DNA of 64,000 bases from Acidobacteriota bacterium (GTDB taxonomy: Bacteria; Acidobacteriota; Blastocatellia; RBC074), in the NCBI GenBank assembly GCA_016196035.1, contig JACPYM010000099.1, positions 64,869 to 128,868 of the forward strand. Reading direction: 5' to 3'. A program made the position numbers and the translations under genes. Position 1 is the first letter of the stretch, and every line of letters begins with the position of its first letter. This document shows positions 34,202-56,760 of the stretch, one piece after another. Below the pieces are notes generated by a model, which was not told where the DNA came from, searched no databases, and was given only the letters and a program-made list of their open reading frames with translations.

Positions 34202-34373
34202 AAGCCCTGAAAGGGCGACATCCAATAGCCCAGGGCAACGCCCTGGGTAACGGCGAAGCGAAGTAAAATACAAGCCCTGAAAGGGCGCAATAAGCGCAAT
34301 AAGCTTTTCACTCATTCGAACGTGGCACCAGGGGCGTTGCCCCTGGCTATTGAATGTCGCCCTTTCAGGGCTT
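34202..34373. repeat. Palindromic element, family B (copy 1)
   Basis: Arms at 34202-34247 and 34328-34373 (outer AAGCCCTGAAAGGGCG, inner CAATAGCCCAGGGCAACG and complements) enclose a further copy of AAGCCCTGAAAGGGCG at 34272-34287. Related copies lie at 43945-44122 (inside a gene) and 57512-57678. Confidence 0.9.
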
Positions 34374-36202: not shown

Positions 36203-36418
36203 CAGCCCCGGCGGGGCGAAATGTTTATAGTTGGAGTGCGAAAAGGCACACGAGCCCCAGCGGGGCGGGATCTGCCGGCGCTCAGATGTCGCTCCTGATG
36301 GAGCTAAGTTGGAGTGCGAAAAGGCACACGAGCCCCAGCGGGGCGGGATCTGCCGGCGCTCAGATGTCGCTCCTGATGGAGCTAAGTTGCTATAAACATT
36401 TCGCGCCGCTGGCGCTGG
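36203..36418. repeat. Inverted repeat enclosing a perfect 78-bp tandem duplication
   Basis: Outer arms CAGCCCCGGCGGGGCGAAAT plus TTTATAG at 36203-36230 and the roughly complementary segment ending at 36418 (TATAAACATTTCGCGCC). Between them two identical 78-bp units lie head to tail (36231-36308 and 36309-36386), each with its own GCCCCAGCGGGGC palindrome. Identity of the two units indicates a recent duplication. Confidence 0.92.
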
Positions 36419-37584: not shown

Positions 37585-37890
37585 GGCGTAACCTGACTTC
37601 TGTCACTGAACCTGCCCCGCATCAGCCAAACTTTCCGGGCTTCAACCGAACTTAGCTTGACCCGCCTGCTGGCGCTGATTTACTCTGCCATCTACTTCAG
37701 ACGACTGGCACGTCCCAATATAAAGCATTCATTACAGGCAAAGATTACAGAGCGTCCAGAAGCAGACGCAGCATTCTTCAACGCATCAGCCGGGATGAAA
37801 AAAGCACCAGGATTTCGGCAGTCTGCCGACCGTCACGCGGACAGTCTCACACTGCTATCCAAGATCAGCACAACCAATGGAGGTTTCAAT
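37585..37890. promoter_or_regulatory. Leader region of the third TonB-receptor gene
   Basis: About 300 bp without a gene. A possible sigma-70 promoter is TTGACC at 37657-37662 with TTTACT at 37679-37684 (16-bp spacing). AATGGAGGTTTCAAT directly before ATG 37891 is a strong ribosome binding site and fixes the start. The frame is open back to 37657, but those residues show no signal peptide. Confidence 0.35.
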
Positions 37891-40800
37891 ATGTGCATCG
37901 CTCTTCGTTTTGCGCGCACGCTAGTTTTATTGGCGCTTTTGAGCGCGCTCGGGTTCGCCCAATCCGCCGTCACCGGCGCGGTCAGCGGCACTGCCACTGA
38001 TCCGAGTGGCGCGGTCATTCCAAGCGCGACCGTGACCCTGCGGAATGTCGGCACGGGCAAGGAAGAAAGCGCCGCGACCGGCTCCGAAGGCCGCTACAAA
38101 TTCACCAACCTGCAACCCGGCAGCTATACCGTCTCCGTCAAGGCGGCGGGCTTCTCCGAATTCAAGCTCTCCGGCGTCGTCGTCGAAGTCGGACGCACGA
38201 CCGAAGCCGACGCCACGCTGAAAGTTGGGGGCGCCGACGCCAGCGTGGAAGTCACCGCTGATGCCGCGCCGGTCAACACCGAATCCAAAGAGTTTTCTTC
38301 CAACATCAATCAAGCCGCGATCAACAACCTGCCGATCAATGGCCGCCGTTGGTCCGACTTCGCGCTGTTGACGCCCGGCTCGGCGCCCGACGGCACGTTC
38401 GGCTTGATCAGCTTCCGGGGCATTTCAGGTTTGCTCAACAACAACACGATTGATGGCGGCGACAACAACCAGGCCTTCTTTTCCGAAGAGCGTGGCCGCA
38501 CGCGCATGGGCTATTCGATCAGCCAATCGGCCATCCGCGAATTCCAGGTCAACACCTCGAACTACTCGGCGGAATACGGACGTTCGGCGGGCGGCGTGAC
38601 CAATGCCGTCACCAAGAGCGGCACCAATGAATTCCACGGCGATGCATTCTATTTCCAGCGCAACAACGAATGGGGCGCGCGCAATCCGCTGGCGTTCCAA
38701 TCCACGCTGGTCAATGGCGTGGGCACGAGTGTGGGCATTAAGCCCGAAGATGTGCGTCATCAATTCGGCGCCACGCTGGGCGGGCCGATCAAGAAAGACA
38801 AGCTCTTTTTCTTTTTCAGTTACGACCAACAGCGGCGCAACTTCCCCGGCCTAGGCGTGTTCACCAGCCCGACTTATCTGAATACCGTCAATCGCAACAC
38901 GGATCCCACCATTACCACTGGCGCCAACGCCTACGCTGCGTCGCTGAAAAATCCGAGCCGTAACCTGACGGATACACAGATCAATGACACCTTGTCGTTT
39001 ATCAACTCGTTGACCGGCACGGTGCCGCGCCGGGGCGACCAGCTCTCGTTCTTGCCGAAGATTGACTGGCAGATCAACAACAAGAATACCTTCACGCTGA
39101 CTTACAATCGCCAGCGCTGGGATTCACCCGCCGGCATTCAAACGCAGCCGGTCAATCAGCGCGGGCGCGCCAGCTTCGGCGACGATTTTGCGGATATTGA
39201 TTGGGTCACGGCGCGACTCACTTCAACGCTGAGTTCGAGAGTGGTGAATGAATTCCGCATGCAGATCGCCCGTGATCTCGAGTATGAGTTCAGCCAGAAG
39301 CCGCTGGCTGGTGAACCGGCCACGGCGCTCAATGGCAGCGCGCCGGACGTCTTCCTGACCAACGGCCTCGAATTTGGTAAGCCGACCTTCCTGGAGCGGC
39401 CCAAATACCCGGATGAAAGACGCAAACAGTTCACCGATAACGTGACCTTCTCGCTGGGTGCCAACACGCTCAAATTCGGCGTGGACATCAACCGCGTCAA
39501 CGAAGAATTGGGCAATCTGCGCAACGAGAGCGGCGCTTACAGCTACAGCAACATCAATGACTTCATCATTGATTACGTCAACTGGAAGACGCCCCTCGCC
39601 GCCACCGTGCCCTGCTCGACCAGCACGCGCACACGCGGCAAATGCTACACCAGCAATTATCTGCAAGGCTTCGGCGTGCTGGGCGCCAAGCTGGCGACGA
39701 CTGATTACAATTTCTTTGCGCAATACGATTGGAAATTCCTGCCGCGCGTGACCTTCAACCTGGGCCTGCGTTACGAATACCAGCAATTGCCGGAGGCGCA
39801 GATTCCGAATGCCGCCACCGATACCATCCCGAACGTGAGCCGGACGATGAACGAAGCGACGTCGTTCATGCCAAAAGACAAAAACAATTTCGGCCCGCGC
39901 ACTGGGTTCGCAATTGATGTGTTCGGCAATGGCAAGACTGCCGTGCGTGGCGGCTACGGGTTGTATTACGGACGCATCATCAATTCGACCGTTTATAACG
40001 CGTTGATCAACACCGGCAACCCGGCGGGTCAAACCCAGATCAGTTTGACGCAAACGGCGGCGACCGCGCCGATCTTCCCGAACGTGCTGACGTCGGCACC
40101 CGCCGGCACAGGGGCGATTCAGTTCTTTGCCAAAGACTTTGGCAACCCGATGATTCACCAGTTCGATTTGATCTTCGAACACCAATTGTTCCGCAACCTG
40201 ACGGTGTCGGCCTCGTATCTGGGCAGCATCGGGCGCAAATTGCCGACCTTCTACGACCGCAATCTGACGCCCCCGACCACCACGCAAATCTTCCCGCTGG
40301 TGGGTGGGCCGCTGGATGGCAAAACGCTGCCGGTGCAACTCTTCGCCACCACGCGCCCGCTGACCACTTACGCGCAGCTTACGGAGATCGCCAGCAAGGT
40401 GAAATCCGAATACAACGCCTTTGTGGTGCAAGCCAATCATCGGATGGCGCGCGGCGTGATGTTCCAGGCGAACTACACGCTCTCGAATGCGATTGATACG
40501 CTGCAAACCTCGACGACCTTCACGGCCAACAACACGCCGTTCAACGTCTTCGATCCCGACTCGGATCGGGGCCGGTCGAATTATGATCGCCGGCATAAAT
40601 TCGTGTTCAGCGCCGTGCTGGCGCCGCGCGTCAAGGCCAGCAACAAAGCCGTGACCGTCCTGGCTGACGGCTGGTCAATCGCGCCGGTCGTCCAGATCTT
40701 TAACGGTCTGGCTTACGACGGTTCGGTGACGGGCAGCAGCGGCGGCGCGGGCAGCCTGAATCGTTCGGGCGGGAACAACGCCCTGCGAGGCTTGCTGGAA

Positions 40801-41091
40801 CGCAATCCTTTCACGGGGCCGACCGTGAAAATCTTCAACGTCCGCGTGTCACGCCGCTTCTACATCAAAGAGAAGATGAACGTGGAGTTGCTGGGCGAGG
40901 TGTTCAACGTGCCGAACCGCGTGCAAGTCACCGGCATCAACAGCACGATGTACATCCTGAACAGCGCCATCAATGCGACGCATCCGGTGGCGACGCTGGA
41001 TTACAACACTCCTTTTGGGACTGTCACAGCGGCGGATAGCACGCTCTTCCGTGAGCGGCAAATTCAGATTGGGTTCCGCTTCAATTTCTAA
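37891..41091 (+). CDS. Oar-like TonB-dependent outer-membrane receptor 3
   Basis: About 1066 residues from ATG 37891 (MCIALRFARTLVLLALLSAL), chosen for its GGAGG site and signal peptide. The carboxypeptidase-regulatory-like domain (VTGAVSGTATDPSGAVIPSA) covers about residues 25-110, then the plug (NNLPINGRRWSDFALLTPGS, RTRMGYSISQSAIREFQVNT, AEYGRSAGGVTNAVTKSGTN) and a beta-barrel ending IQIGFRFNF with the terminal aromatic. It resembles receptors 1 and 2 in plan but is clearly divergent and shorter. A strong rho-independent terminator follows. The ligand is unknown. Confidence 0.93.
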   Translation: MCIALRFARTLVLLALLSALGFAQSAVTGAVSGTATDPSGAVIPSATVTLRNVGTGKEESAATGSEGRYKFTNLQPGSYTVSVKAAGFSEFKLSGVVVEVGRTTEADATLKVGGADASVEVTADAAPVNTESKEFSSNINQAAINNLPINGRRWSDFALLTPGSAPDGTFGLISFRGISGLLNNNTIDGGDNNQAFFSEERGRTRMGYSISQSAIREFQVNTSNYSAEYGRSAGGVTNAVTKSGTNEFHGDAFYFQRNNEWGARNPLAFQSTLVNGVGTSVGIKPEDVRHQFGATLGGPIKKDKLFFFFSYDQQRRNFPGLGVFTSPTYLNTVNRNTDPTITTGANAYAASLKNPSRNLTDTQINDTLSFINSLTGTVPRRGDQLSFLPKIDWQINNKNTFTLTYNRQRWDSPAGIQTQPVNQRGRASFGDDFADIDWVTARLTSTLSSRVVNEFRMQIARDLEYEFSQKPLAGEPATALNGSAPDVFLTNGLEFGKPTFLERPKYPDERRKQFTDNVTFSLGANTLKFGVDINRVNEELGNLRNESGAYSYSNINDFIIDYVNWKTPLAATVPCSTSTRTRGKCYTSNYLQGFGVLGAKLATTDYNFFAQYDWKFLPRVTFNLGLRYEYQQLPEAQIPNAATDTIPNVSRTMNEATSFMPKDKNNFGPRTGFAIDVFGNGKTAVRGGYGLYYGRIINSTVYNALINTGNPAGQTQISLTQTAATAPIFPNVLTSAPAGTGAIQFFAKDFGNPMIHQFDLIFEHQLFRNLTVSASYLGSIGRKLPTFYDRNLTPPTTTQIFPLVGGPLDGKTLPVQLFATTRPLTTYAQLTEIASKVKSEYNAFVVQANHRMARGVMFQANYTLSNAIDTLQTSTTFTANNTPFNVFDPDSDRGRSNYDRRHKFVFSAVLAPRVKASNKAVTVLADGWSIAPVVQIFNGLAYDGSVTGSSGGAGSLNRSGGNNALRGLLERNPFTGPTVKIFNVRVSRRFYIKEKMNVELLGEVFNVPNRVQVTGINSTMYILNSAINATHPVATLDYNTPFGTVTAADSTLFRERQIQIGFRFNF

Positions 41092-41160: not shown

Positions 41161-41295
41161 TTGCGGCAAAAGCGCATAGCGGGACGGTACCGCGCGCGTC
41201 AGCAAGCGGAGACTGCGCTACTGCACCCGTCCGTCAGACTTGACGCGCCGCTTGCTGACGCGCGCGGTACCGTCCCGCTATGCGCTTTTGCCGCA
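41161..41295. repeat. Palindromic element, family C (copy 1), ~48-bp arms
   Basis: Arms 41161-41209 and 41248-41295 are almost exact reverse complements (TTGCGGCAAAAGCGCATAGC outer part, CGCGCGTCAGCAAGCGG inner part). It lies between the convergent ends of receptor 3 and the giant IPT gene. The inner half is shared with the copy at 49099-49230, the outer half is not. Confidence 0.95.
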
Positions 41296-41326: not shown

Positions 41327-44300
41327 TTAATTTTTAACGGGAGCTGTTTGGCTTGGCGGCGCTGATTGTTGCGGTTGCGCTTCGGGCTGCGGCTGTTTCT
41401 CTTCCTTCGGCGGCGCGGGTTTGGCCGGTTGCACAATCGTCCACAGGAACAACAAGCGCGGCGTGCGATGCGTCATGCCTGACAACCCATCGCGCATCCA
41501 CATCTGGCTGCCCTCGAATGACAGCACGTTGAAGCGGTACTTGCCCGGCAATTGCCACGCCAGGCGCGCACCGTGGTTGGTCATCCACATATCGCCCGTG
41601 GTCAGGCGGCGCAGCGGCGCGCCTTCCAGCAATTGCAGCATCTGCGACGAGAGTTGATTGAGCGTCACCAGCGGCGTCAGCGACAACCCGGTGCGCGTCC
41701 AGTTAAACGTCGGTTGAATATACGCCGTCAGCGTGCGTGAAGCGCCGACGCTGAAGCGTTCGCCCGCCAGCCAGTTGACGCTGACGGTGGACGTCCATTG
41801 AAACCAGGGATTGACGGGCGTCCAGTTCGTGCTGACATTCAGCGAGGTGAGGATGTTGTTGGCGCGTTGATTGACCGTGTCGCGGAACCAGTTGCGCGAA
41901 CCGCCGACGGTCACGGCGAGCGCGCCCAGCTTCGGCTTTTGCAGCGTCTCGGTGAGATTGACGTTGACGCCATCGCGGCCCTGATCGGCCAAGCCGATGA
42001 TGCCCGGCTGCGTGCGGTTGCTGGTCGTGGTGCGCGCAACGTTCGCGCCCACCGAAAGCATGGTGCTGAAGGTGGCGTCTTTGACCGTCTTGTGCGTCAG
42101 TTGTTTCGCCCAGTTCAGATTGACGTTGTTCAGGCCCACGTGCGCGCGATTGTCGTAGCGGAAATCGCTCTGCAAATACTGGTACTGGCCGGAAAAGGTG
42201 CCGTACAATGTGTTGCGCGAAATGGCGAAGTCTACGCCGCGCCGGTCACTCGCACTGAGTTGCGTCAACGACGCCGTCGCCGGAATCGAATAGTTGGGCG
42301 AGACATCGCGAAATGAAAAACTGATATTCGCCTTGTGCCAGGTGCCGACGAAGCCCGTGCGCCAGGCCCGTCCGAATTGCCGCCGCGCTTCGGCAGCGAG
42401 GCGATTCACATTGTTCGAGGTGATCGCGTATTCCGAGACCCAGTTCCAATCTTTGTTCAACTTGACCGCCAGCAAACTGCCATACGAATCGCCCACGCGC
42501 GGCGTCGCGAAAGCGTCAATCTGCGTGAGGGGGTTCCCTTCCACGTCATACCCGATCTTGAGCGGATGGCCGCCGACATCGTTCGCGCTCAGCCACATCA
42601 AACGGAACTTCACGCGCTCCGGGTCTTTCGTAAACGCAGGCGCGTCGTAGCTGCCGCCATAAACGCGCTGATGAAAGCCGAAGCCGATGCCTTCGCCCTG
42701 GCCTTTGTCATTGGTGTTGCGATAGAAGCCAAACGTGCCGCCCGGCGTTTTCAAGGCCAACTCGACGCCTTCGCGCGCAAAACCGGTTGAAACATATTCG
42801 GCGTTCAGAAAGCTCTGCGGCGAGACCATGCCGAAGCGCAAATCAATGCCCCACTGCGGGCCTGTCAAACCAGTTTGGCCCGGCTGGCCTGCCGCCGGAT
42901 TGGGCTGCGCCGGATTGGCCGCCGCGCCAAACGGCCACTCGCGGCCAAAGTGAAAGATGTAATCGTTGAAGCGGCCCAGCGAATGGCGCGGATTGGGGCT
43001 GAGCAACGAATTGAGCAGGCCGCTGCCATTCATCTCGGTGAGCCAGGGGCCGTTTTTGTAGCGGCCCTGCATCGAGAGCGACAGGTTGTGCGTGTCCTGC
43101 TCGCTGCCCGAAATGTCTTGCTGATTGGAAGCGGCTTCCCATTTGAATTCTTTTTCGACGGCTGGCACAGGCGCCGCGCCATCGGGCGCTTGCTGCGCGG
43201 CAGCGGCCTCGGCAGCAGCCGTGGCTTCGGCATTCGCCGCGCCAGTCGCTGTCGTCGTTTGCTCCGCGTCGGTGCCTTTGGTTTCCGGGTCAGCCTGTTC
43301 GGTGGTGGCCGCCGCATTGACGGTGAAGAACCAACCCAATGCTTCTTCGCCCACGTTCAACAGAAGCTGGTGTTTTCCATTCGTCAGCGGAATCGTCGGT
43401 TGAAAAGCGACCTGCCTGTCAGTGATCTTGGCGAGCGCGCTGTAATCGGTGTCGTCAATTTGCAAACCGACCTCGCTCGGTTGAATGGGTGCGTTGAAAT
43501 CAATGCTGACCGCCGGCGTCGCGGTTTTGACGAAGGCGTCAGGCAAGGGCGAACGCGCGGCGATCATGGCGGTCAGCTTGGGCGATGGCGGCGGCGCGGT
43601 CTGGGTTTGTGGCGCTGGCGGCTCTGCTTGGTTTGGCGGCGCAGTTGTTGTTTTTTGCGCCGGTTGATTTTGCGGTTCAGTCGCCGTCTTTTGTGCCGGT
43701 TGTTGTTTTGGCGCGACGGTCGTGCTTGCCGGTGTTTTGGTTTGCGCCACAGCCACAGCGTCATCCTTCTCTTTTCCAATAGCCCAACCGTGCGCACCGT
43801 AAATCGGTGAAGCGGCAGCGGGGCTTGGCGTATCAACTTCGGCAACATCGGCCTGCAATTCAGCCATCGCTGAAACAGGTACAAACGTGACCGGTGTCTC
43901 TGCCTGTGACGACTCTATAGACCGGTTCAAATCATGGGCTGCCGTGTCCCTGAAAGGGACAAATTCAATAGCCGGGGGCAACGCCCCCGGACAAGGTAGT
44001 TCCGTGCCCGACCCTGAAGGGGTCGCATTTGAATCGGTCTGCGACCCCTTCAGGGTCGGGGGATCACACGCGCTATTCCGGGGGCCATGCCCCCGGCTAT
44101 TGAATTGCGCCCTTTCAGGGCTGCCAAAGCGTGTTTGTGGCTTTGCCAGCAATGCCAATTCTGCTGAAACCCCGTCGCTCCCGCTCACAGTACTGTCACG
44201 TCTGCCCGCCATACCCGCCGCCACTTCCGGCCAGGCAATCTGCCAATCCAGTTTTTCGACCGGCAACAACGAACTGGTTTTCTGCGGCTTCGGCAAAAAG

Positions 44301-47300
44301 TTGTAGCGCTCGCTGGTCATCAGCAAACGGCCTTTCAAATTGAAGGCTTCGACGCGCCAGTAATACAGCACACCCGGCTGAAATTTGTCGGAGAGCTTCT
44401 TTACATCCAGCTTGGCATTCGCGGTCGCAAAGCGTTTGATCACCAGTTTGCCCGCTACGTCACTGGTGATTGTCACGCGGTAAATGACCGCCGCGCGCAC
44501 GGGCTGCCATTCCAAAATCGTCGTGTCCGTTGGTGAAGTCAGCGCGACAGGTTTTAGCGCGCCCGGTGTCAAACGGTTGATGCGCCGCATCGCGGCGGGT
44601 TCGCGCAAATTGCCCGCCGTCTCGACCACGCGCGCCGTCCACCACAATTCGCCTTCGGGCAAGGCTTGCCAGACGGCGAGCGGCACCTGCCATTCGGTGC
44701 CCGTCACGTCGTGCCATTGCGTGATCGTGTTAAAAAAGGGCTGCGTCGAAAAACCGATTTGGTATTTCATCGCGCCGGGCACGGGCGTCCAGCGCAACAC
44801 CGGCGTCTGTTCGGCGACATAGCCCGCGCCGGAATTGGGCTCGAGCAGGCGCAACATCTTCCAGGTGCCGTTGTTGATGATGATCTCGACCGGCGGCGAC
44901 TGAATCATGTTCGGCGACGTGATTTTGATTTCGAGCCGGTGCGGCCCCAGATAGATCGTCGGCAGCGGATTGTTCGGGCGCAGCGTGCGGCGCTCGCCCG
45001 CCGTGAAGTTGAGCGCGAACTGCTCGGTGACGTTGCCATCCCACAACCATTGGCCGATCACGGTGCCAGTACCCGCGCCTGCCAGCACGGCTTCGGCAAT
45101 GAGTCGCTCGCCTTGCGAGATGACGGTGCCGTTGCGCGGATAGATGATCAGCACGCTGGTGATCTGCAACGGCGCGCCCAGCGAACTGCCGCCCTGCACG
45201 CGCAAAGGTTTCGTCGTGCGCGAGCCATTCGCCCCGGTGCTGGTCAAATCGGCGTTGACCACGTCTACCGCGCGCATGTTGAGCGTGGCGTTGTTGGCGA
45301 CGCTGACGACAGCGTAAATCATCGTCTCGTTCACACGATTGACCGATTCGACCAGGATGTCGGCGGCGGGCATCAAGCCTGCATTGCTTTCGCTCGGGCC
45401 GATCACGACGCGCGCGCCGGGCCGGAAATTCGCGCCGATCAGCGTCAGGCGCACTTGCCGCGCGCCCTGGGCGACGGCGCTGGCGGTGACGGTGTTCAAG
45501 GTCGGCGGTGGCAACGGGCGCGGCGTGATTGTGAAGACAGCCGCGTTGGAAGTTCCGCCACCGGGCACGGGGTTGAACACGGTGATTTGAGCCGTGCCCG
45601 TGTTGGCGACATCTGCCGCTGGCACCTGCACGGCCAGTTGCGTGCCGCCGACGAAGCGCGCCGTGCGATTCGCGCCGTTCCAACGCACGACCGACGCGGG
45701 CAGGAAGCCGTTGCCATTGATCGTCAGCGTGAATTCGCCGCTGCCTGCGACGATGGAATTGGGGATGATCGCGGCGATGACGGGCGCGGGATTGTTGACG
45801 TTGATCGTCAGCGCGTTGGATTGGCCACCGCCCGGCGCGGGATTGAATACGGCGATGCTGGCGGTACCCGCGTTGAGCAAATCGGACGCGGGGATTTGCG
45901 CGCTCAACTGCGTGGCCGACACGAACATCGTCGGGCGGTTCGCGCCGTTCCAGCGCAGCACCGAATTCGCCACAAAGTTCGTGCCCGTGACTAGCAGCGT
46001 CACGCCCTGTGCGCCCGCCGCGAGCGGATTGGGCGTGGCAGCGGTCAGCGTCGGCACAGGGTTTTGCTGTTGGTTGATCGTAAAGGTCAGCGCATTGGAC
46101 GTGCCGCCGCCCGCGCCTGCCACGTTGGGTGGATTGAGCACCGTCACTGCCGCCGTGCCCGCGCTGGCGATGTCCGTCGCGGGAATCTGCGCCATCAATT
46201 GCGTCGCCGACACAATTGTGGTCGGGCGGTTCGCACCGTTCCAATGCACCACCGAGGTGTTGATGAAATTCGTGCCGGTCAGCATCAGGGCGAAACCCGC
46301 GCCGCCTGCGTTCACCGCATTGGGCGTCAAACTCGTCAAGGTCGGCACGGGCGCAGGCGCTTGGTTGATCGTAAACGGCAAGCTATTCGACGTGCCGCCG
46401 CCCCCGCTGGCATTGGGCGGATTGAAGACTGCGACCGTCGCCGTGCCTGTGTTGGCAATGTCCGTGGGCGGAATCTGCGCCATCAGTTGCGTCGCCGAAA
46501 GAAACGTCGTTGGGCGATCCGTGCCATTCCAGCGCAGCACTGAACTGTTGATGAAATTTGCGCCCGTGACCGTCAGCGTGAATCCGGCGCTGCCCGCATT
46601 GGCCGCGCTGGGATTGAGGGCGGTCAGGCGCGGCACGGGATTGGGCGCGACATTGATGGTGAACGGCACCGGGTTCGACGAGCCGCCGCCGCTGCCATTG
46701 GTGTTGGGCGGATTGAAGACGGTCACGTTCGCCACGCCCGCGTTGGCAATGTCGGTCGCGGGAATTTGCGCGCCGAGTTGCGTGGCGTTGATGAATTGCG
46801 TCGTGCGATTCTGCCCGTTCCAGCGCACGACCGAACCGGCAATGAAGCCGCTGCCGTTGACCGTCAAGGCGAACGCGGGGCTGCCCGCAACTGCCGCGTT
46901 CGGCGTAATCGAAATGACGATGGGTGCGGGGTTGTTGATGTTGATCGTTAGCGCATTCGATTGACCGCCGCCGGGCGCGGGATTGAACACCACGATGCTG
47001 GCCGTGCCTGCTGCATCTAAATCCGTCGCGGGAATCAACACGCTCAACTGGGTGCTTGAAATGAACGTCGTTTGCCGGTTTGCGCCGTTCCAGCGCAACA
47101 CCGAACCGGCGACGAAATTTGCCCCCGTCACCAGCAAGGTCACGCCCGGCGTCCCGACCTGAATCGGGTTCGGCGTGGCGTTGATGAGCGTGGGCACGGG
47201 GTTCTGGGCCTGAATGATCGTGAAAGGTAAGGCGTTCGTCGTGCCGCCACCGCCGCCCGCATTCGGCGGATTGAAGACCGCCACCGAAGCCGTGCCCGCG

Positions 47301-48763
47301 TTGGCGATGTCTGTCGCCGGAATCTGCGCCATCAACTGTGTCGCCGAAACAAAAGTCGTGGGGCGATCTGCGCCGTTCCAGCGCGCGACGGACGTGTTGC
47401 TGAAATTCGTGCCCGACAGCATCAAGGTGAAGCCCGCGCTGCCCGCGTTCGCCGTGTTTGGATTGAGGCTGGTCAGCGTCGGCACAGGCGCGGGCGCTTG
47501 ATTGATCGTGAAGGGCAAGGCGTTCGAGCTGAGTCCGCCCGCGCCATTGGGATCGGTGTTAAAGACCGTCACACTCGCGCTGCCCGCATTTGCCAGATCG
47601 CTGGCGGGAATCTGCGCGCTCAATTGCGACGCCGAAAGAAAGGTGGTCGGACGATTCGCGCCATTCCAACGCACCACCGAGAACACGCCGAAATTCGTGC
47701 CTGTCAGCATCAAGTTGAGCGGCGGACTGCCCGCGTTCGCCGTGTTCGGATTGAGGCTGATGAGTGTCGGTGTGGGAGTCGGTGCCGCATTGATCGTGAA
47801 CGTGACGGGATTGGAGGTGCCGCCGCCTGCGCCCGCCGTGTTGGGCGGATTGAAAACAGTCACGCTGGCACTGCCCCCATTGGCGATGTCGCTGGCGGGA
47901 ATTTGCGCGCTCAATTGTGTCGCCGAGAGGAACTGCGTCGGACGATTCGACCCATTCCAGCGTGCGACCGAGCCATTGATAAAGTTCGCGCCCGTCAGCG
48001 TCAGCGTAAACGCCCCGCCGCCCGCCGTCGCTTGATTGGGATTGAGATTGATCAACGTCGGCACCGGATTGGCCGCTTGATTGATCGTAAAGGAAACAGG
48101 GCTGGACGTGCCGCCACCCACACCTGCTGTGTTCGGCGGCGTAAAAACGGTCACGCTGGCGCTGCCAGGTGCCGCGATGTCACTGGCGGGAACCTGCGCG
48201 GTTAATTGTGTCGCTGACAAGAAATTCGTCGGCAGATTCGACCCGTTCCAACGCGCGACCGATGCATTGACGAAATTCGCGCCGTTCAACGTCAACGTGA
48301 AGGCCGGGCCGCCGGCATTCGCCGCGTTCGGGTTGAGACTGAGCAAGGTCGGCGCGGGCGGCGCGGGTTGGGTGATCGTGAAGATCAGCGGATTGGAAGC
48401 GCCGCCGCCTGCGCCGGGATTGAAGGCCGTCACTTGCGCGGTGCCCGCCACGGCCAAATCCGCCGCCGTGATGAGCGCCGTCAATTGCGCGGTCGAAATG
48501 AAATTGGTCGGACGATCTGCGCCGTTCCAGCGCACGGTCGTCAGGCGGTTGAAATTCAAACCGCTGACCGTGATGGTCAAGCCGGGCGTACCGGCTTGCG
48601 CAGAATTGGGGGCCAGGCCGGTCAGTGTCGGCACATTGGTTTGCGCGATTGCCAACACGCCCGTGCTGACCAGCGCCAGCCATAAACAGACGCTCCAGGC
48701 GCGTCTGTTGAAAAGCCCGTAGAAAAAAATGCCGAATTGTATTGAGCTGCGACTCCGCTTCAC
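41327..48763 (-). CDS. Giant IPT/TIG-repeat protein with C-terminal outer-membrane barrel
   Basis: A 2478-residue exported protein from the GTG at 48763, preceded by GGAGAG. Signal region: AWSVCLWLALVSTGVLAIAQ. Residues about 43-1170 hold twelve IPT/TIG-like beta-sandwich repeats of about 90-95 residues, most with the phrase RWNGANRPT, then SATQLSAQIPA and VFNPPN. Next comes a region with fibronectin-like features (VLRWTPVPGAMKYQIG, LYYWRVEAFNLKGRLL). Residues about 1547-1607 are encoded by an inserted family B palindrome. A Pro/Gln/Thr-rich linker follows, then from about residue 1890 a segment of alternating beta-strands (LSLSMQGRYKNGPWLTEMNG to LFLWTIVQPAKP) typical of an outer-membrane barrel, with a Pro/Gln-rich tail. 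The plan resembles an adhesin-like or autotransporter-like surface protein; its biochemical role is unknown. Confidence 0.85.
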   Translation of the reverse strand: MKRSRSSIQFGIFFYGLFNRRAWSVCLWLALVSTGVLAIAQTNVPTLTGLAPNSAQAGTPGLTITVSGLNFNRLTTVRWNGADRPTNFISTAQLTALITAADLAVAGTAQVTAFNPGAGGGASNPLIFTITQPAPPAPTLLSLNPNAANAGGPAFTLTLNGANFVNASVARWNGSNLPTNFLSATQLTAQVPASDIAAPGSASVTVFTPPNTAGVGGGTSSPVSFTINQAANPVPTLINLNPNQATAGGGAFTLTLTGANFINGSVARWNGSNRPTQFLSATQLSAQIPASDIANGGSASVTVFNPPNTAGAGGGTSNPVTFTINAAPTPTPTLISLNPNTANAGSPPLNLMLTGTNFGVFSVVRWNGANRPTTFLSASQLSAQIPASDLANAGSASVTVFNTDPNGAGGLSSNALPFTINQAPAPVPTLTSLNPNTANAGSAGFTLMLSGTNFSNTSVARWNGADRPTTFVSATQLMAQIPATDIANAGTASVAVFNPPNAGGGGGTTNALPFTIIQAQNPVPTLINATPNPIQVGTPGVTLLVTGANFVAGSVLRWNGANRQTTFISSTQLSVLIPATDLDAAGTASIVVFNPAPGGGQSNALTININNPAPIVISITPNAAVAGSPAFALTVNGSGFIAGSVVRWNGQNRTTQFINATQLGAQIPATDIANAGVANVTVFNPPNTNGSGGGSSNPVPFTINVAPNPVPRLTALNPSAANAGSAGFTLTVTGANFINSSVLRWNGTDRPTTFLSATQLMAQIPPTDIANTGTATVAVFNPPNASGGGGTSNSLPFTINQAPAPVPTLTSLTPNAVNAGGAGFALMLTGTNFINTSVVHWNGANRPTTIVSATQLMAQIPATDIASAGTAAVTVLNPPNVAGAGGGTSNALTFTINQQQNPVPTLTAATPNPLAAGAQGVTLLVTGTNFVANSVLRWNGANRPTMFVSATQLSAQIPASDLLNAGTASIAVFNPAPGGGQSNALTINVNNPAPVIAAIIPNSIVAGSGEFTLTINGNGFLPASVVRWNGANRTARFVGGTQLAVQVPAADVANTGTAQITVFNPVPGGGTSNAAVFTITPRPLPPPTLNTVTASAVAQGARQVRLTLIGANFRPGARVVIGPSESNAGLMPAADILVESVNRVNETMIYAVVSVANNATLNMRAVDVVNADLTSTGANGSRTTKPLRVQGGSSLGAPLQITSVLIIYPRNGTVISQGERLIAEAVLAGAGTGTVIGQWLWDGNVTEQFALNFTAGERRTLRPNNPLPTIYLGPHRLEIKITSPNMIQSPPVEIIINNGTWKMLRLLEPNSGAGYVAEQTPVLRWTPVPGAMKYQIGFSTQPFFNTITQWHDVTGTEWQVPLAVWQALPEGELWWTARVVETAGNLREPAAMRRINRLTPGALKPVALTSPTDTTILEWQPVRAAVIYRVTITSDVAGKLVIKRFATANAKLDVKKLSDKFQPGVLYYWRVEAFNLKGRLLMTSERYNFLPKPQKTSSLLPVEKLDWQIAWPEVAAGMAGRRDSTVSGSDGVSAELALLAKPQTRFGSPERAQFNSRGHGPRNSACDPPTLKGSQTDSNATPSGSGTELPCPGALPPAIEFVPFRDTAAHDLNRSIESSQAETPVTFVPVSAMAELQADVAEVDTPSPAAASPIYGAHGWAIGKEKDDAVAVAQTKTPASTTVAPKQQPAQKTATEPQNQPAQKTTTAPPNQAEPPAPQTQTAPPPSPKLTAMIAARSPLPDAFVKTATPAVSIDFNAPIQPSEVGLQIDDTDYSALAKITDRQVAFQPTIPLTNGKHQLLLNVGEEALGWFFTVNAAATTEQADPETKGTDAEQTTTATGAANAEATAAAEAAAAQQAPDGAAPVPAVEKEFKWEAASNQQDISGSEQDTHNLSLSMQGRYKNGPWLTEMNGSGLLNSLLSPNPRHSLGRFNDYIFHFGREWPFGAAANPAQPNPAAGQPGQTGLTGPQWGIDLRFGMVSPQSFLNAEYVSTGFAREGVELALKTPGGTFGFYRNTNDKGQGEGIGFGFHQRVYGGSYDAPAFTKDPERVKFRLMWLSANDVGGHPLKIGYDVEGNPLTQIDAFATPRVGDSYGSLLAVKLNKDWNWVSEYAITSNNVNRLAAEARRQFGRAWRTGFVGTWHKANISFSFRDVSPNYSIPATASLTQLSASDRRGVDFAISRNTLYGTFSGQYQYLQSDFRYDNRAHVGLNNVNLNWAKQLTHKTVKDATFSTMLSVGANVARTTTSNRTQPGIIGLADQGRDGVNVNLTETLQKPKLGALAVTVGGSRNWFRDTVNQRANNILTSLNVSTNWTPVNPWFQWTSTVSVNWLAGERFSVGASRTLTAYIQPTFNWTRTGLSLTPLVTLNQLSSQMLQLLEGAPLRRLTTGDMWMTNHGARLAWQLPGKYRFNVLSFEGSQMWMRDGLSGMTHRTPRLLFLWTIVQPAKPAPPKEEKQPQPEAQPQQSAPPSQTAPVKN
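43945..44122. repeat. Palindromic element, family B (copy 2), inside the IPT/barrel gene
   Basis: Outer arms 43945-43990 and 44078-44122 (CCCTGAAAGGG, CAATAGCCGGGGGCAACGCC and complements) enclose an inner palindrome at 44006-44062 (CCGACCCTGAAGGGGTCGCA and complement). It contributes about 60 residues in frame with no stop codon. The translation there (Pro/Ser/Arg-rich, with DPPTLKGSQTDSNATPSGSG) is unlike the rest of the protein. Confidence 0.93.
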
Positions 48764-48972
48764 AGTGAACTCTCCAGTTGACGTAAATTCGCAAAGTTAT
48801 GGGGCGTCAACTACACAAGCGTTTTTTGGCCCGTAAAACACTCATCGCACAAAAAGATTTCTGCCTGTAAAAAATTCGGGGCTGTTCCCTGGGAGCGCAA
48901 GCATCTCTGCCTGCCATGAAAGACGTTGCGCAGCGCTCCTTTTCCCGCCCCAGATTGAGGTCGAAGACTAGG

Positions 48973-49081
48973 CTAGTACTCCATCAAGCTGTAAGTGATG
49001 GATGCTGAGAGCGCATCCGGGATGTAGGGCGGGATTAAATCCCGCCCTACATCCCTCATTTTCAGCTTGATGGAGTACTAG
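48973..49081. repeat. Nested inverted repeat (CTAGTACTCCATCAAGCTG arms)
   Basis: Outer arms 48973-48991 and 49063-49081 are exact complements of 19 bp (CTAGTACTCCATCAAGCTG). An inner perfect palindrome occupies about 49019-49056 (GGATGTAGGGCGGGATT and complement with a 2-4 bp loop). Confidence 0.92.
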
Positions 49082-49098: not shown

Positions 49099-49230
49099 TG
49101 TACGGGTGGCGCGCTGGGGGCAGTACCGCGCGCGTCAGCAAGCGGTGCGTCAACGCTGGCGCAATACGGCACACCCTGAGTCTCCGCTTGCTGACGCGCG
49201 CGGTACTGCCCCCAGCGCGCCACCCGTACA
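49099..49230. repeat. Palindromic element, family C (copy 2), 47-bp arms
   Basis: Arms 49099-49145 and 49184-49230 are exact or almost exact reverse complements over 47 bp. The inner part (GTACCGCGCGCGTCAGCAAG) is the same as in the element at 41161-41295, showing a dispersed family with variable outer arms. Confidence 0.95.
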
Positions 49231-49408: not shown

Positions 49409-50524
49409 TCAGGCTTCATCCTTCATCCTGCCGAAGATTTGCGCCGCGCGCTGGCGGTAAACCTCGGCTTCCTGCTCGCGCAGTTGCGTTTGGTAAAACT
49501 GCGCCAGGGTTTCCAGCAATTCGGCGACTTCCAGGTTTTGCACGCCGAGCAGCTTTTCTTTGATGGCCAGAGCGTGCAAATAACAACGTTCGGCTGCGGG
49601 CGCGCCGCTCAAGCGCGCCAGGGCCTGCCACAACACGGCCATCTCGTAATGTTCGGGGCCATACCGGCGTTCAACGATCGCCACGGCGCGGCGGTAAAGT
49701 TGTTCCGCCGCCGCGTGCCGCTGCAAATTTTCCTGAATCGCCGCCAACAGTTTCAGGTCAGGCACCAGTGCCGGATGGGCCGCGCCCAGCACACGTTCGC
49801 GCGTCACCAAGGCGCGATGGGCAAAATGTTCGGCTTCGGCCCAGTGGCCGCGCGCGATTTCCAACCGGCTCAGATCGCGGCACAGATCGGTGACGGAACT
49901 GTGCTCTTCGCCAAAGAGTGTTTCGTTGATCGCCAGCGCCTCTTCGTAATGCGCGCAGGCTTCGTCCAGGCGTTGCCGCGCTTGCAGCAGGATCGCCAGC
50001 CGATGGTGCACCGCGCCAGTTTCGGGACTGCATTTGCGAAAGGCGGTTTCCGCCAGCTCCAGCGCTTGGCGCAACCAAGGTTCGGCTTCGCTTAAGCGGC
50101 CTTGCGTCTGTTGCAAGGCCGCCAAACGCTGCCAGGTATGCAAACGCCAGCGATTTGTTTCGGATCGCGCGGCGGCGGATTGCGTCCGAGCGGGCTGTGG
50201 CCGTGTGGGCTGTGGCCTGGTGGATTCGAGCACACGCGCTAGCCGCTCATAGAGCCGGACCGCTTTGGCTTGGTCGCCATTCGCTTCATAAAGTTTTGCC
50301 AGATGATCGAGAAATTGGGCCAAGTGCAGCGGGTCATCGCCGGCTGCCGTTTCGGCCAATTGCAGCGCGCCCTGCCAGAGCGACTTGGCTTGTGACGGCT
50401 CTGGTTGGACGCGCGCGGTGACACCCAGGTTATGGCATAAGTTGCCTGATTTGGGCAATGCACCCGTGCGCGGCAACTCGCTCGCCGGCTCGCTGCTCAA
50501 ATTGCTCTTGTTCGTCTCGATCAT
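49409..50524 (-). CDS. Tetratricopeptide-repeat protein (kinesin-light-chain-like repeats)
   Basis: A 371-residue soluble protein without a signal peptide. At least six TPR or kinesin-light-chain-type repeats are visible, for example LDHLAKLYEANGDQAKAVRL, HHRLAILLQARQRLDEACAH, LAAIQENLQRHAAAEQLYRR and LLETLAQFYQTQLREQEAEV. A Pro/Arg linker (TRPQPTRPQPARTQ) sits at about residues 100-115 and comes from a short DNA duplication. It is likely a scaffold for protein contacts. No partner is evident; the next gene upstream encodes a small secreted protein, 253 bp away with a terminator between them. Confidence 0.85.
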   Translation of the reverse strand: MIETNKSNLSSEPASELPRTGALPKSGNLCHNLGVTARVQPEPSQAKSLWQGALQLAETAAGDDPLHLAQFLDHLAKLYEANGDQAKAVRLYERLARVLESTRPQPTRPQPARTQSAAARSETNRWRLHTWQRLAALQQTQGRLSEAEPWLRQALELAETAFRKCSPETGAVHHRLAILLQARQRLDEACAHYEEALAINETLFGEEHSSVTDLCRDLSRLEIARGHWAEAEHFAHRALVTRERVLGAAHPALVPDLKLLAAIQENLQRHAAAEQLYRRAVAIVERRYGPEHYEMAVLWQALARLSGAPAAERCYLHALAIKEKLLGVQNLEVAELLETLAQFYQTQLREQEAEVYRQRAAQIFGRMKDEA

Positions 50525-52511: not shown

Positions 52512-55500
52512 TCAACGCGGCACGTTCAGTTCCCAAACGCGCGCCAAGGTGTCCGCTTCCGCCTGCGCCCCTTGCTGCCGCAACTTGGCGGCCAGCTTTT
52601 CCGCCCAACAGCCGCGCGCCTGGCGAAAGAGCGCGCCGCGCGCCGCATCCGCCGCCGCGATTTGTTCGCGCATCTCGTTCAACAGCCGCACGCAACTGCG
52701 CAACGCTTCGACGGCTTCGCGTTGGTGCTTCTCGTCCGGGCTTTGTTCTAACACCAGCGCCAGCGCCTGAGAGCCGCGCCAGCGTTCGCCCGCGCCGCTC
52801 TCTTCCAACAGGCTCAGCGCGCGTCGCAAGCCAGCCAGGGCTTTCGCCGTATCGCCCAGTGCAAACTGCGCCCGCGCCTGTTCAATCAAGGCCAACCCCA
52901 AACCATCCACGTTGTGCAACTCATCGGCAATGACGACGGCTTCGGTCGCCAGGGCCAGCGCGAATTCAGCTTCGTCCGTCGCCAGCCGCAAGCGCGCCAG
53001 GTCGGTCAGCATGCGAAATTCGTCAGCGCGGTCGCCGACGCTTTCGCGGATGGTCAGCAGCGCGCCGGTCAAATGCGCTTCGGCCAGCGGGTGTTGACCC
53101 AATTCGCAATACGCGCGGCCCAACAGCCATTGGGCCTCGGCTTCGATGTGAGTGTCGCCGACGCGGCGCAAACTTTCCTGCGCGCGTTTGAGCAATTCGA
53201 CAGCCTCGTCATACAGCCCCTGCGCCAGCCGCGCCTGGCCGATGCCCAAATCCATCTGCGCTTCGCCGCGCGCGTCGCCGACGCTGCGAAAGTCGTCGCG
53301 CGCGCGCAGCGCCAGTTCAATCGCGCCTTCATAACGGCCCCGCGCCAGATCGGCCCAATGCCGCCGCCGCAACAACAGCGCGCGGCGCTGCGCATCGCCG
53401 ATGCTGCCCATGTAATCCACCGCGCGTTCGAGCAGCGGTACGCCTTCTGAATAATGCCCTTGCAGCGCGCGCGCCCAACCCAACAGGCCAAAGGCCACCG
53501 CCGCAATCTGGCTGTTGAGCGCGACATCGGCCAGCGCCTGTTGCGCGAACTCTGCCGCCGCGTCGTAATGCCCCAGCCGTACCTGCACGCCGCCCAGTTG
53601 CAACAGCGCCAGCGCCACGCCTTCGACATCGTTGAGTTGCCGGTATAACTCCAACGCCTGCTCGGTCACGAGCACAGCTTCGCGGTACTGGCCCAGGCCC
53701 ATCTGCGTTTGCCCGCGTTGCAACAGCGCCACGGCCAAGCCGCCACGGTCATGCACGGCGTTGGCGAGCGCGACGGCTTCGCTATAGGCGCGTTCGGCTT
53801 CCGGCAAATTGCCCGTGGCGTAACAGGTTTCGCCCCAGGCGAAGAGCACGCGCAGGCGTTCGGCTGGATCGAGCGGCGCGGTCGCCCCGCGCTGCACGTC
53901 GTCGGCGGCGCGGCGGGCGCGTTCGATGTTGGACATGGCTTCACTCCAGGATTGGCGGCTGCTGGCGGCTTGCCAGGCGCGCATGCTCCACTCAAAAGTG
54001 CGCAGGGCGTCACCGGCGGCTTCGTAATGTGCGCTCAAGGCTTCGGCAACGCGCTCGCGGTCGCGGCGATACACGCGCTCCAACGCTTGCGCGGCTTGCA
54101 GGTGCAACCGCTTGCGGCGGCGCGGCGGCAGGTTTTCATAGAGCACGTGACGCAGAGTCGTGTGATAGAACCGCGCGTCATTGCCCGCCGAAACGCCGCG
54201 TTCAGACAGCACACCGACTTTGACGCCGGCCAGCAGCAGGCTTTCGATTTCCTCTTCGCCGCGCCCCAGCATCTGCGCCAGCGTTTCGATGCGGAACTCA
54301 TCGCCGATCACGGCGGCGGCTTCGGCCAATTCGCGCACTTCCTCGCTCAACCGGTCGAGCTTGGCGTGCGCGGCCATCACGATGGTGTCGGGCAAATGCA
54401 AATCCTTGAGGCCCTGCCATTCCCAAATCGCCTGTGTGGGATTGAACGTGATCGCGCTCTCTGACACCAACAGCCGCAGCATCTCGGTTAGGAAATAGGG
54501 ATTGCCGCCCGTCACGTGATGCAGCCGCTGCAAATCGGCGGGTGGCACGTGCAGCGTCTGGTTGAAGACGGCTTCGCTTGCGCTGCGGCAATCGTCGGCG
54601 TTCAGCGGCCCGAGCGTCAGCGCGGTGTAGCTGCGCAAACTGGCCTGCCGCCGCAACCATTCAGCCAGCGGATGATGCCGGTCGTTGGCGGCTTCGGCGC
54701 GCGCCAGGCTGACGATCATCAGCGGTTCGCTTTGCAGTGTGCGCAGCAAATAGCCCACGCAATCACGGCTCGCCTCGTCGGCCCATTGCAAATCGTCGAA
54801 GACCAGCACCAGCGGACGATGCAAACTGGCGCGCACAAAACACTGGCTCAAGGCCACGACCGTGCGCGAATTGCTGCTGTTGCTGATGAGCGGCCCGGTA
54901 GTTTTTGGGATTGCGGATTGGGGATTGCGGATGGCGGATTCGGGCATCACTAGGGTGCCGGTGGTTTTGATTAAACGTGCGTTGGCATCAGCAAACAGTT
55001 CATCCGGCAAGGTGACGCCGAGTTGTTGCTGGGCCAGCGCGCGCAGATCACAGGCCGCCAGCGGCTGCGCGCATTCGCTCGCACCGGCATTCGGCACGCC
55101 CAAGACCGTGCGCAACAGATCAAGAAAGACTTCGTAAGGCGCCAACCGGCTGGCCTGATAATCGAAGAACCGCGCGGACAGGCAAAGCGCACCTTGGGCC
55201 TGCGACCAGCGCACAAAGGCCCGCGCCAGTTGCGTCTTGCCAATGCCCGGTTCGCCCAGGATCATCACCGGGCGTCCATTCCCAGCCAGCACGCGCGTGT
55301 ATTCGGTTTGCAACTGTTGCAACTCGGCCTCGCGCCCGACCAGTTGGTTGTAATCGGGCACGCCCAGCCCCGCACCGGTCGTGAACGGGACGATGCCCGC
55401 GTGACGCATTGAAGGGGAATCAAAGACAGGCACGCGCTGTTCGCCGGTCACGGCTGGCGCGGGCGGAATCAACGCGGGCGCTGCCGCAGTGCCCGCGCCG

Positions 55501-56567
55501 CCACTGCGTTGTGCTTCCGGCGCGGGCGACGCGGCTGAGACAGGCGCGTCTTTTTGAACAACAGGCGCGGCCTCGCAAGTCACATCGGCGATAAAACGAT
55601 AGCCCTGGCCGTGATAGGTTTCGATGAAGCGCGCCTGATCGGCCACATCGCCCAACGCGCGCCGGGCCTGTGAAATCGCGCGTTTCAGCACGCCATCGGT
55701 CGTGAAGGTATCGGGCCAGACGGCTTCGAGCAACTCGTCTTTGGTGACGACGCGTTCGCTGTGTTCGGCCAAAAAGCGCAGCACCTGCACGGCGCGGCGT
55801 TCAAGCGCGACCATCTCGGCGCCGCGATAGAGCAAGTCCACCTTGGCCGGAATGCGAAAGGCTCCAAATTGCAATTCGCTGTGTGACATCTTGATTCTCC
55901 AATGCGGAATGATGCGGCTGCGCAGGGCTTTGCTGACCGCTTCGTTTTTGGAATGGACGTGGAGTTTGTCGTAGATGCTGCGGATGTAATTGCGCACCGT
56001 GTTGACACTGATATTGAGTTGTCCGGCGGCGCTCTGGTAACTGTGTCCGTCGGACAGCAGTTGCAAGAGCCGGACTTCCTGGGGCGTGAGCTGGTCATCG
56101 GGCTGAGCGGATGTGCCAATGAGATGGCCGGTCTTTTGAAAGAGCGTGACGACCTTGCGCGCGATTTCGGGCGACATCGGCGAGCCGCCCTCGTGCGCTT
56201 CACGAATGGAATCGAGCAGGCGGGCGGGCGGCGTTTTCTTGAGCAAATAGCCGCACGCGCCGTTGCAGATGGATTCAAAAATCTTGTCCTGCTCGGCATA
56301 GACGGTCAGCATCAACACCTGCATCTGCGGGAAGCGTTCGCGGAAGACTTTCACACCGTCCGAACCGAGCATGCCGGGCAAATGAATGTCGAGCAGCAGC
56401 ACCTCGGGCACGTTCGCGCCCAATTCGTGCAGCGCTTCTTCGACCGAACCGAAGGTGCGCGGGCAGCGAAAGCCCGGCGTCGCGTTGATCAATAAGCCCA
56501 GGCCTTCGCGCAACGAACGGTCGTCTTCGACGATGGCGACATGAATGGTGCTGGTAGCCGTTTCCAT
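52512..56567 (-). CDS. Fusion regulator: receiver-LuxR joined to wHTH-AAA ATPase-TPR
   Basis: A single frame of 1351 residues from ATG 56567 (METATSTIHVAIVEDD), with GGAGAACAAATC upstream; the open frame to 56903 covers a repeat and is unlikely to be used. Order: NarL-type receiver (about 7-125; phospho-acceptor in EVLLLDIHLPGM, conserved Lys in YLLKKTPP), LuxR helix-turn-helix (about 150-215; LTPQEVRLLQLLSDGHSYQS), an OmpR/CadC-type winged helix (about 230-325; LQFGAFRIPAKVDLL, ARFIETYHGQGYRF), an AAA ATPase (Walker A LGEPGIGKTQLA near 434, Walker B LVLVFDDLQWADEAS near 584) and about 480 residues of TPR. A 7-bp repeat is inserted between the Walker motifs (near 542-553). The second half has its own ATG at 55889 with GGAGAATCAAG before it. 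The two halves are known separately; the fusion is unusual. Confidence 0.85.
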   Translation of the reverse strand: METATSTIHVAIVEDDRSLREGLGLLINATPGFRCPRTFGSVEEALHELGANVPEVLLLDIHLPGMLGSDGVKVFRERFPQMQVLMLTVYAEQDKIFESICNGACGYLLKKTPPARLLDSIREAHEGGSPMSPEIARKVVTLFQKTGHLIGTSAQPDDQLTPQEVRLLQLLSDGHSYQSAAGQLNISVNTVRNYIRSIYDKLHVHSKNEAVSKALRSRIIPHWRIKMSHSELQFGAFRIPAKVDLLYRGAEMVALERRAVQVLRFLAEHSERVVTKDELLEAVWPDTFTTDGVLKRAISQARRALGDVADQARFIETYHGQGYRFIADVTCEAAPVVQKDAPVSAASPAPEAQRSGGAGTAAAPALIPPAPAVTGEQRVPVFDSPSMRHAGIVPFTTGAGLGVPDYNQLVGREAELQQLQTEYTRVLAGNGRPVMILGEPGIGKTQLARAFVRWSQAQGALCLSARFFDYQASRLAPYEVFLDLLRTVLGVPNAGASECAQPLAACDLRALAQQQLGVTLPDELFADANARLIKTTGTLVMPESAIRNPQSAIPKTTGPLISNSSNSRTVVALSQCFVRASLHRPLVLVFDDLQWADEASRDCVGYLLRTLQSEPLMIVSLARAEAANDRHHPLAEWLRRQASLRSYTALTLGPLNADDCRSASEAVFNQTLHVPPADLQRLHHVTGGNPYFLTEMLRLLVSESAITFNPTQAIWEWQGLKDLHLPDTIVMAAHAKLDRLSEEVRELAEAAAVIGDEFRIETLAQMLGRGEEEIESLLLAGVKVGVLSERGVSAGNDARFYHTTLRHVLYENLPPRRRKRLHLQAAQALERVYRRDRERVAEALSAHYEAAGDALRTFEWSMRAWQAASSRQSWSEAMSNIERARRAADDVQRGATAPLDPAERLRVLFAWGETCYATGNLPEAERAYSEAVALANAVHDRGGLAVALLQRGQTQMGLGQYREAVLVTEQALELYRQLNDVEGVALALLQLGGVQVRLGHYDAAAEFAQQALADVALNSQIAAVAFGLLGWARALQGHYSEGVPLLERAVDYMGSIGDAQRRALLLRRRHWADLARGRYEGAIELALRARDDFRSVGDARGEAQMDLGIGQARLAQGLYDEAVELLKRAQESLRRVGDTHIEAEAQWLLGRAYCELGQHPLAEAHLTGALLTIRESVGDRADEFRMLTDLARLRLATDEAEFALALATEAVVIADELHNVDGLGLALIEQARAQFALGDTAKALAGLRRALSLLEESGAGERWRGSQALALVLEQSPDEKHQREAVEALRSCVRLLNEMREQIAAADAARGALFRQARGCWAEKLAAKLRQQGAQAEADTLARVWELNVPR
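54908..54942. repeat. Five 7-bp units (GGATTGC type) inside the ATPase domain
   Basis: Units GGATTGC, GGATTGG, GGATTGC, GGATGGC and GGATTCG follow one another without gaps. On the coding strand they are read as ESAIRNPQSAIP. The insertion is flanked by a direct repeat: coding-strand AAAACCACCGG and AAAACTACCGG, giving KTTGTL before it and KTTGPL after it. Confidence 0.9.
55887..55901 (-). promoter_or_regulatory. Internal ribosome binding site and start codon within the fusion gene
   Basis: On the minus strand TTGGAGAATCAAG precedes an ATG at 55889 that begins MSHSELQFGAFRIP, exactly the start of the winged-helix domain. No stop codon separates it from the upstream LuxR domain (ending RSRIIPHWRIK). 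It looks like the retained translation start of a formerly separate gene and may still yield a 1125-residue product. Confidence 0.7.
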
Positions 56568-56636
56568 GATTTGTTCTCCGGCACCCATCCTCACGCACTT
56601 TGCGTTGGGCGTCCAGAGCATAAATATGCGCCTATT

Positions 56637-56753: not shown

Positions 56754-56760
56754 GTCCGGC

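Follow-up and report, generated by a model that had tools for sequence, protein, structure and literature searches.

Does a long string of immunoglobulin-like beads, joined in one chain to its own outer-membrane barrel, stand outside the cell or inside it, and where did such a chain come from? The question is raised by a gene at 48763-41327 on the minus strand of the 64,000-nucleotide stretch of Acidobacteriota DNA analysed here (the window). Its reading frame is open throughout and encodes a giant protein of 2478 residues, and the plus strand of 41327-48763 contains many stops. A first-pass annotation, made from the sequence, had read this protein as a TIG stalk, a Pro-rich spacer and a C-terminal barrel in a single polypeptide; it named no strand and had neither the relatives nor the palindromic element in the linker. 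That anatomy is now supported by searches for domains, by a structure model and by homologues in which the domains follow one another in the same order.

Domain anatomy of the giant protein

All features in this section lie on the minus strand. Translation would begin at a GTG start at 48763, 6 nt downstream of a ribosome-binding-site-like GGAGAG (48770-48775) that we read from the sequence. Residues 1-41 (48641-48763) were recognised by eye in the translation as a signal peptide, with a basic n-region, a hydrophobic core and an A-I-A-Q end, and the first repeat begins directly behind it at residue 44. Eleven full CoaZ/TIG repeats occupy residues 44-1079 (45527-48634), identified by Pfam, NCBIfam and DNA-level matches. 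They are followed by a degenerate twelfth TIG (residues 1085-1190, 45194-45511), which has a partial NF058597 match, aligns with its counterpart in homologues and forms the first domain of a conserved core.

Behind it, an Ig-like domain (residues ~1195-1300, 44864-45181) is placed by alignment alone, and two FN3-like domains (residues ~1302-1400 and 1401-1500, 44264-44860) by alignment, with the name given on inspection; neither kind has a Pfam match in the giant protein. The Pro-rich spacer that had been claimed is confirmed by composition: the linker at residues 1501-1732 (43568-44263) has 32 Pro and 37 Ala among its 232 residues. A Big_13-like domain follows (residues 1733-1816, 43316-43567), with a Pfam Big_13 match at E 0.045 that is under the cut-off and with conservation in homologues. 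The chain continues into an outer-membrane barrel with 26 predicted strands (residues 1866-2445, 41429-43168), assigned from an AlphaFold2 model, fold matches and strand alternation, and ends in a Pro-rich tail (residues 2446-2478, 41330-41428; 10 Pro of 33). Those Terriglobia-like homologues (defined below) whose stop codon is covered end soon after the last barrel strand.

The CoaZ/TIG repeat array

Pfam TIG (PF01833) matches the giant protein in 11 stretches with 239.8 bits (gathering cut-off 20.9), and NCBIfam NF058597 (CoaZ_rpt_PGGG, choice-of-anchor Z repeating domain) matches it in 12 stretches with 1044 bits (cut-off 30). At the DNA level, NF058597 resolves 11 full repeats (residues 44-1079) and one partial repeat from about residue 1085, and the "dozen" IPT/TIG repeats first reported are better counted as 11 full and one degenerate. 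No distal ligand-binding domain was found at the N-terminus, where no other Pfam or NCBIfam family matched.

The 11 repeats share 46-80% pairwise identity as protein (mean 60%) and 55-78% as DNA, and their median dN/dS is 0.29. The suggestion that the array DNA is repetitive enough to recombine was only partly right: the repeats are alike, yet the longest exact direct repeat within the array is 21 bp, so present-day unequal crossing-over is plausible but not obvious. Repeats 5 and 9 are 80% identical and repeats 6 and 10 are 77% identical, and the nearest relative of repeat 11 within the protein is repeat 7 (59%). These pairings suggest an old duplication of four units, by which part of the array would have grown as a block.

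The C-terminal part is modelled as a large barrel

With 12 homologues, AlphaFold2 models residues 1866-2450 as a simple meander of 26 strands (mean pLDDT 61.7, pTM 0.52), with pLDDT >=70 in 216 of 585 residues. A single-sequence model of residues 1742-2453 reached a pLDDT of 30.9 and was discarded. Side-chain hydrophobicity alternates in the modelled strands more strongly than in 1998 of 2000 within-strand shuffles. The top five rows of VIA-align include the FimD usher (Z 16.3, 363 residues aligned), MtrB of the Mtr complex (6r2q_B, Z 15.5, 465 residues aligned, model residues 3-582) and LptD (Z 15.2), and the rows below them include TonB receptors and porins. Foldseek returned 13 matches at E <=0.001, which had low TM-scores and were all outer-membrane barrels, namely ushers, TonB-dependent transporters and the T9SS translocon, with SprA chains among them. 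The barrel sequence had no sequence match in the PDB.

The earlier proposal of a barrel in the last ~550 residues thus gains a 26-strand model over ~580 residues and matches to barrels in the PDB, with moderate confidence. There is a good probability that the C-terminal part folds as a large barrel, the exact strand number being uncertain in this model. A TonB-dependent receptor was rejected as an identification: the protein has no plug or receptor-barrel Pfam match, and window neighbours of that kind do match.

A conserved core in other Acidobacteriota

As a single sequence, the C-terminal part matched only its own genome when 11 genomes from the order and 98 from the class were searched; a first scan of the genome collection with this part alone found no relative, and a plasmid search gave no match. 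Searching 149 genomes from the phylum with the barrel gave matches in seven, own genome included. Five of the six others, all from one family, carry ORFs of 1114-1147 aa that can be aligned over the whole of residues 1085-2478, covering the TIG, Ig-like, two FN3-like, Big and barrel domains. A phmmer search of the homologues' ORFs with the C-terminal 863 residues gave E 4.5e-16. A profile scan of the genome collection yielded 16 loci, of which 13 were strong (L184-L196) and five of these lay on the same contigs as the relatives from the phylum search. The strong loci include Granulicella sp. and Acidobacteriaceae, Granulicella belonging to the Terriglobia within the Acidobacteriota. We call L189-L196 Terriglobia-like, although only L189, L190, L191, L192 and L195 are titled Granulicella or Acidobacteriaceae and the other three only Acidobacteria or Acidobacteriota. 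Left out were L197-L199, which are partial matches, and genome G112, with a 41-residue match containing a stop. L187, L192, L194 and L196 are truncated by contig ends and L191 and L195 each occupy two frames, which leaves seven homologues complete in a single frame: L184, L185, L186, L188, L189, L190 and L193.

Barrel identity to the giant protein is 36-49% for the seven Terriglobia-like rows with barrel coverage (over 276-520 residues) and 18-21% for the other rows. For the Ig-like domain, it is 47-50% in six Terriglobia-like homologues and 27-32% in the others. A profile of the core alignment scores the giant protein at 1449 bits, a value that is not independent because the protein's own row is in the profile. 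The same profile found no other core in 147 genomes of the class. Its matches in 27 other class genomes were short, generic Ig/FN3, Big or TIG hits, as were FN3-region matches in 19 of 98 class genomes (own included), and neither set was counted as core. The same-genus genome is 73% complete. The core being absent from the sampled class, horizontal transfer is possible, as is loss elsewhere in the class.

Judged by alignment and shared domain order, residues 1085-2478 are part of an Acidobacteriota family that is not curated, and its recurrent barrel core had no match here in Pfam or NCBIfam. Ahead of the degenerate TIG, we counted one CoaZ repeat in each of L189-L196, none in L184-L188 and 11 in the giant protein. 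We therefore read the giant protein as a conserved barrel core with a stalk that expanded in its own lineage: the shorter relatives carry zero or one bead, which suggests that the string grew longer here. The L184-L196 homologues lack most of the Pro-rich linker as well as the palindromic element treated below. What had been called a new combination is shared in its core with a family of several Acidobacteriota and new in the eleven-repeat array set upon that core, which we saw only here. The parts are ordinary and, as far as these searches reach, the assembly is new and the core family is in no curated library. A literature search for TIG domains associated with the outer membrane in Acidobacteria found none.

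Possible origin of the array within the host lineage

CoaZ repeats are abundant in this lineage, with 98 NF058597 matches in the genome and repeats in 11 of 11 genomes of the order. We collected 49 stretches from this and related genomes and called repeats in them with a model built from the giant protein's own repeats. They contain 46 CoaZ-bearing ORFs, 29 of which have a Soli_cterm-like motif behind the repeats; NCBIfam calls Soli_cterm in three of four tested. Among the remaining CoaZ ORFs, six have different tails of 151-193 aa and several are cut by contig ends. The giant protein's C-terminal and middle parts matched none of the 1262 ORFs of the 49 stretches.

All 11 repeats score higher against their best match among own-genome repeats than against their best match among Terriglobia-like ones. 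The simplest account is that the core's single repeat was supplemented or replaced by repeats from the host itself, although concerted evolution would produce the same pattern. A repeat tree (88 columns, 267 rows) was poorly resolved.

A palindromic element read in frame in the linker

Within the linker lies a 175-bp palindromic repeat element (43948-44122), read in frame at about residues 1548-1606, with an Acido-Lenti-1 match at 44078-44122 on the plus strand. Residues ~1531-1615 match many other places in the genome, mostly with internal stops, and after merging 105 listed matches by hand within ~500 bases we find the element at 41 places, some copies sitting at contig ends. Rfam Acido-Lenti-1 (RF01687, 46 nt), a motif listed in a table of a published paper, matches the ends of the element. 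The copy at 34203-34372 has it at both ends in opposite orientation and the copy in the ORF at one end; 14 further copies scanned for it had it at both ends in opposite orientation in four cases, at one end in seven and at neither in three. The double match at 34203-34372 suggests that the RF01687 "sRNA" is, at least in this genome, the arm of a dispersed palindrome and not a free sRNA.

The element strand is predicted to form an RNA hairpin of -134 kcal/mol, compared with a shuffle mean of -68, and in the giant gene each strand has one frame without a stop across it. Since both flanks match one protein family, the gene keeps its reading frame from one side of the element to the other. An assembly artefact at the element was rejected on the ground that homology continues across it. 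None of 14 other copies tested is clearly mid-gene; at one of them (L018), the open frame runs for 74 aa before the element and 485 after. This locus thus presents a dispersed palindromic repeat that is read in frame as protein sequence and leaves the gene unbroken.

Genomic neighbourhood

Upstream of the giant gene lies a TPR protein (49409-50524, minus strand), and downstream, in convergent orientation, a protein with CarboxypepD_reg and OMP_b-brl_4 domains (37657-41091, plus strand). Two hairpin repeat copies flank the gene, one downstream at 41188-41269 and one upstream at 49124-49205, with arms of ~50 bp and identical 22-bp core arms. This pair is absent elsewhere in the window and might mark a mobile cassette. 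A third inverted repeat, with TAGTACTCCATCAAGCTG arms, lies directly upstream of the giant gene at 48974-49080. Elsewhere in the window, seven of 17 tandem-repeat rows are short arrays with a 7-base period (at 7957, 8023, 14403, 54908, 56637, 56722 and 59822), and a 78-bp unit is repeated in tandem at 36229-36389 (2.1 copies, 100% identical). At 52512-56903, a 1463-aa protein unites a receiver domain of the response-regulator type with DNA-binding domains of the LuxR and OmpR types, an AAA ATPase and TPRs. The window ORFs scanned included none recognised as heme, LPS or pilus genes.

In six relatives (L184, L185, L186, L190, L191 and L193), a gene for a different giant protein comes next after the core gene, and one for an FN3 protein after that; the trio spans 8271-18805 in L184, 9545-21101 in L190, 9749-21213 in L191 and 7315-18956 in L193. 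This neighbouring giant measures 1242-1974 aa, is split in L190 and has TIG matches in L193; that of L184 has no Pfam match. Neither it nor the FN3 protein has a homologue among the window ORFs, and its C-terminal 816 residues had no match in this genome in a search run without a positive control.

A proposed barrel-anchored stalk and its alternatives

We favour a barrel-anchored Ig stalk that projects from the cell surface, to which we assign a probability of about 0.5. Computation gives the domain order, the homologous core, the differing repeat numbers and the barrel-like fold. What we infer is the route of export, the exposure at the surface and any function in binding. A core of TIG, Ig-like, FN3, FN3, flexible linker, Big_13-like domain and C-terminal barrel would have been extended N-terminally to eleven CoaZ/TIG beads. 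The chain would be exported by Sec, the ~26-stranded barrel inserted with the assistance of BAM, and the bead string borne on the long disordered linker, which would pass through or beside the barrel and most likely project the stalk outside the cell. Repeat number would then set reach. If the protein is a stalk, binding would fall to the repeats themselves or to partners, since there is no tip domain.

Length and variability favour the outside. A TIG, Ig or FN3 domain measures ~3.5-4.5 nm and the periplasm is 20-30 nm wide, so that a rod of 12 TIG, one Ig and two FN3 domains would extend over ~50-65 nm and exceed the periplasm. In addition, array length varies (0, 1 and 11 repeats, in distant relatives and not in strains of one species) while the core does not. 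On the other side, domains that precede a large C-terminal barrel in known proteins usually lie in the periplasm, which favours an inside placement. The even strand number in the model would also leave both barrel ends periplasmic unless the linker threads the pore, and this counts against a surface stalk, as do the moderate confidence of the model and the lack of a visible adhesive tip. The relatives' neighbouring giant TIG-type and FN3 genes hint at a partner function that our explanation leaves unused.

The first alternative is a periplasmic receptor or scaffold, in which the Ig string would stay inside and touch peptidoglycan or inner-membrane partners and the barrel would act as a conduit or uptake pore. 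That placement is the default topology of a barrel with an N-terminal extension, and the closest folds include the conduit-type barrels MtrB and LptD; the Pro-rich C-terminal tail also fits. A 15-domain chain would nevertheless be longer than the normal width of the periplasm, and a range from 0 to 11 repeats on a conserved core would be odd for a spanner of a fixed gap. We regard the periplasmic reading as possible and give it some weight. The succession of core, giant and FN3 genes in the six relatives, the ushers at the top of the VIA-align list and the SprA chains among the Foldseek matches would instead fit a secretion or assembly platform: the barrel would export or anchor the relatives' giant TIG-type protein, and here the partner would have been lost and an own TIG array taken its place. 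No usher, POTRA or T9SS family matched, though, and the partner is missing from the window ORFs, as is its C-terminal part from the genome in the search without a positive control, and we consider a platform improbable.

The 41-place element inside the ORF, with its -134 kcal/mol hairpin and its copies at contig ends, also raises the prospect that an insertion or an assembly join at that point produced a decaying or chimeric ORF without function. Against this, frame and homology run on across the element: in relatives, a single protein matches both residues 1085-1500 and residues 1733-2450. The array, the middle domains and the barrel all have a third-position GC of 0.78-0.80, and the median dN/dS of the repeats is 0.29. 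We consider decay or chimerism very unlikely. A classical (type Va) autotransporter would share the exported N-terminal part, the C-terminal barrel and the single chain, but passages of PMC6555100 describe classical autotransporters with a 12-stranded barrel and inverse autotransporters with an N-terminal one. With 26 strands in a moderate-confidence model, compared with 12, the giant protein is probably not of the classical kind, and Pfam autotransporter families matched neither it nor the 13 aligned barrels; we give this identification hardly any credence.

Returning to the surface stalk, a bolder extension is that it constitutes a separate form of one-chain surface display in Acidobacteriota, in which an Ig stalk would be exported through, or be held by, its own ~26-strand barrel, would have its reach tuned by taking in CoaZ beads from the host's repertoire, and would use a domesticated mobile RNA-hairpin element as its linker. 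We put this forward speculatively.

Comparison with known systems

The giant protein resembles type V autotransporters in having a beta-domain stalk and a barrel in one chain, and the first-pass appeal to "autotransporter or intimin logic" holds as far as this likeness. As a statement of membership it is not supported: type Va shares the C-terminal barrel but not the modelled strand number, no autotransporter family matches, and in type Ve (intimin/invasin) the domain order differs, so that a protein with its barrel at the C-terminus is not an intimin. FimD/PapC, MtrB and LptD are similar in fold (Z 13-16, scores that many barrels reach alike) with 5-10% identity over aligned residues, and none of their sequence families matched the giant protein.

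As for the linker, Rickettsia palindromic elements are ~150-bp palindromes read in frame inside genes, according to passages of PMC10969869. The likeness is a palindrome in frame inside a gene; unlike them, the element here is unrelated, has Acido-Lenti-1 ends and is clearly mid-gene in one of 15 copies examined.

Periscope proteins, described in passages of PMC8201768 as surface stalks of variable length, have tandem similar folded domains that differ in number between relatives; they may be a parallel for the array here, where repeat numbers of 0, 1 and 11 come from distant relatives. The distal ligand-binding domain of Periscope proteins and fibrillar adhesins is absent from the giant protein, and an adhesin with a tip was rejected because no tip domain was found. 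The passages of the fibrillar adhesin paper PMC8286594 do not mention TIG.

The closest comparisons lie within the phylum. The CoaZ ORFs examined in the lineage have the same repeats, 29 of 46 with a Soli_cterm-like motif and none with the giant protein's C-terminal part. The L184-L196 family has the same order of TIG, Ig, FN3, FN3, Big and barrel, but with 0-1 CoaZ repeat where the giant protein has 11, and with downstream partner genes that are not present here. In a lineage rich in CoaZ/TIG giants, this locus connects one array with a barrel core that is found again in other members of the phylum, which offers a concrete candidate anchor, and the series of 0, 1 and 11 repeats makes the growth of the stalk traceable.
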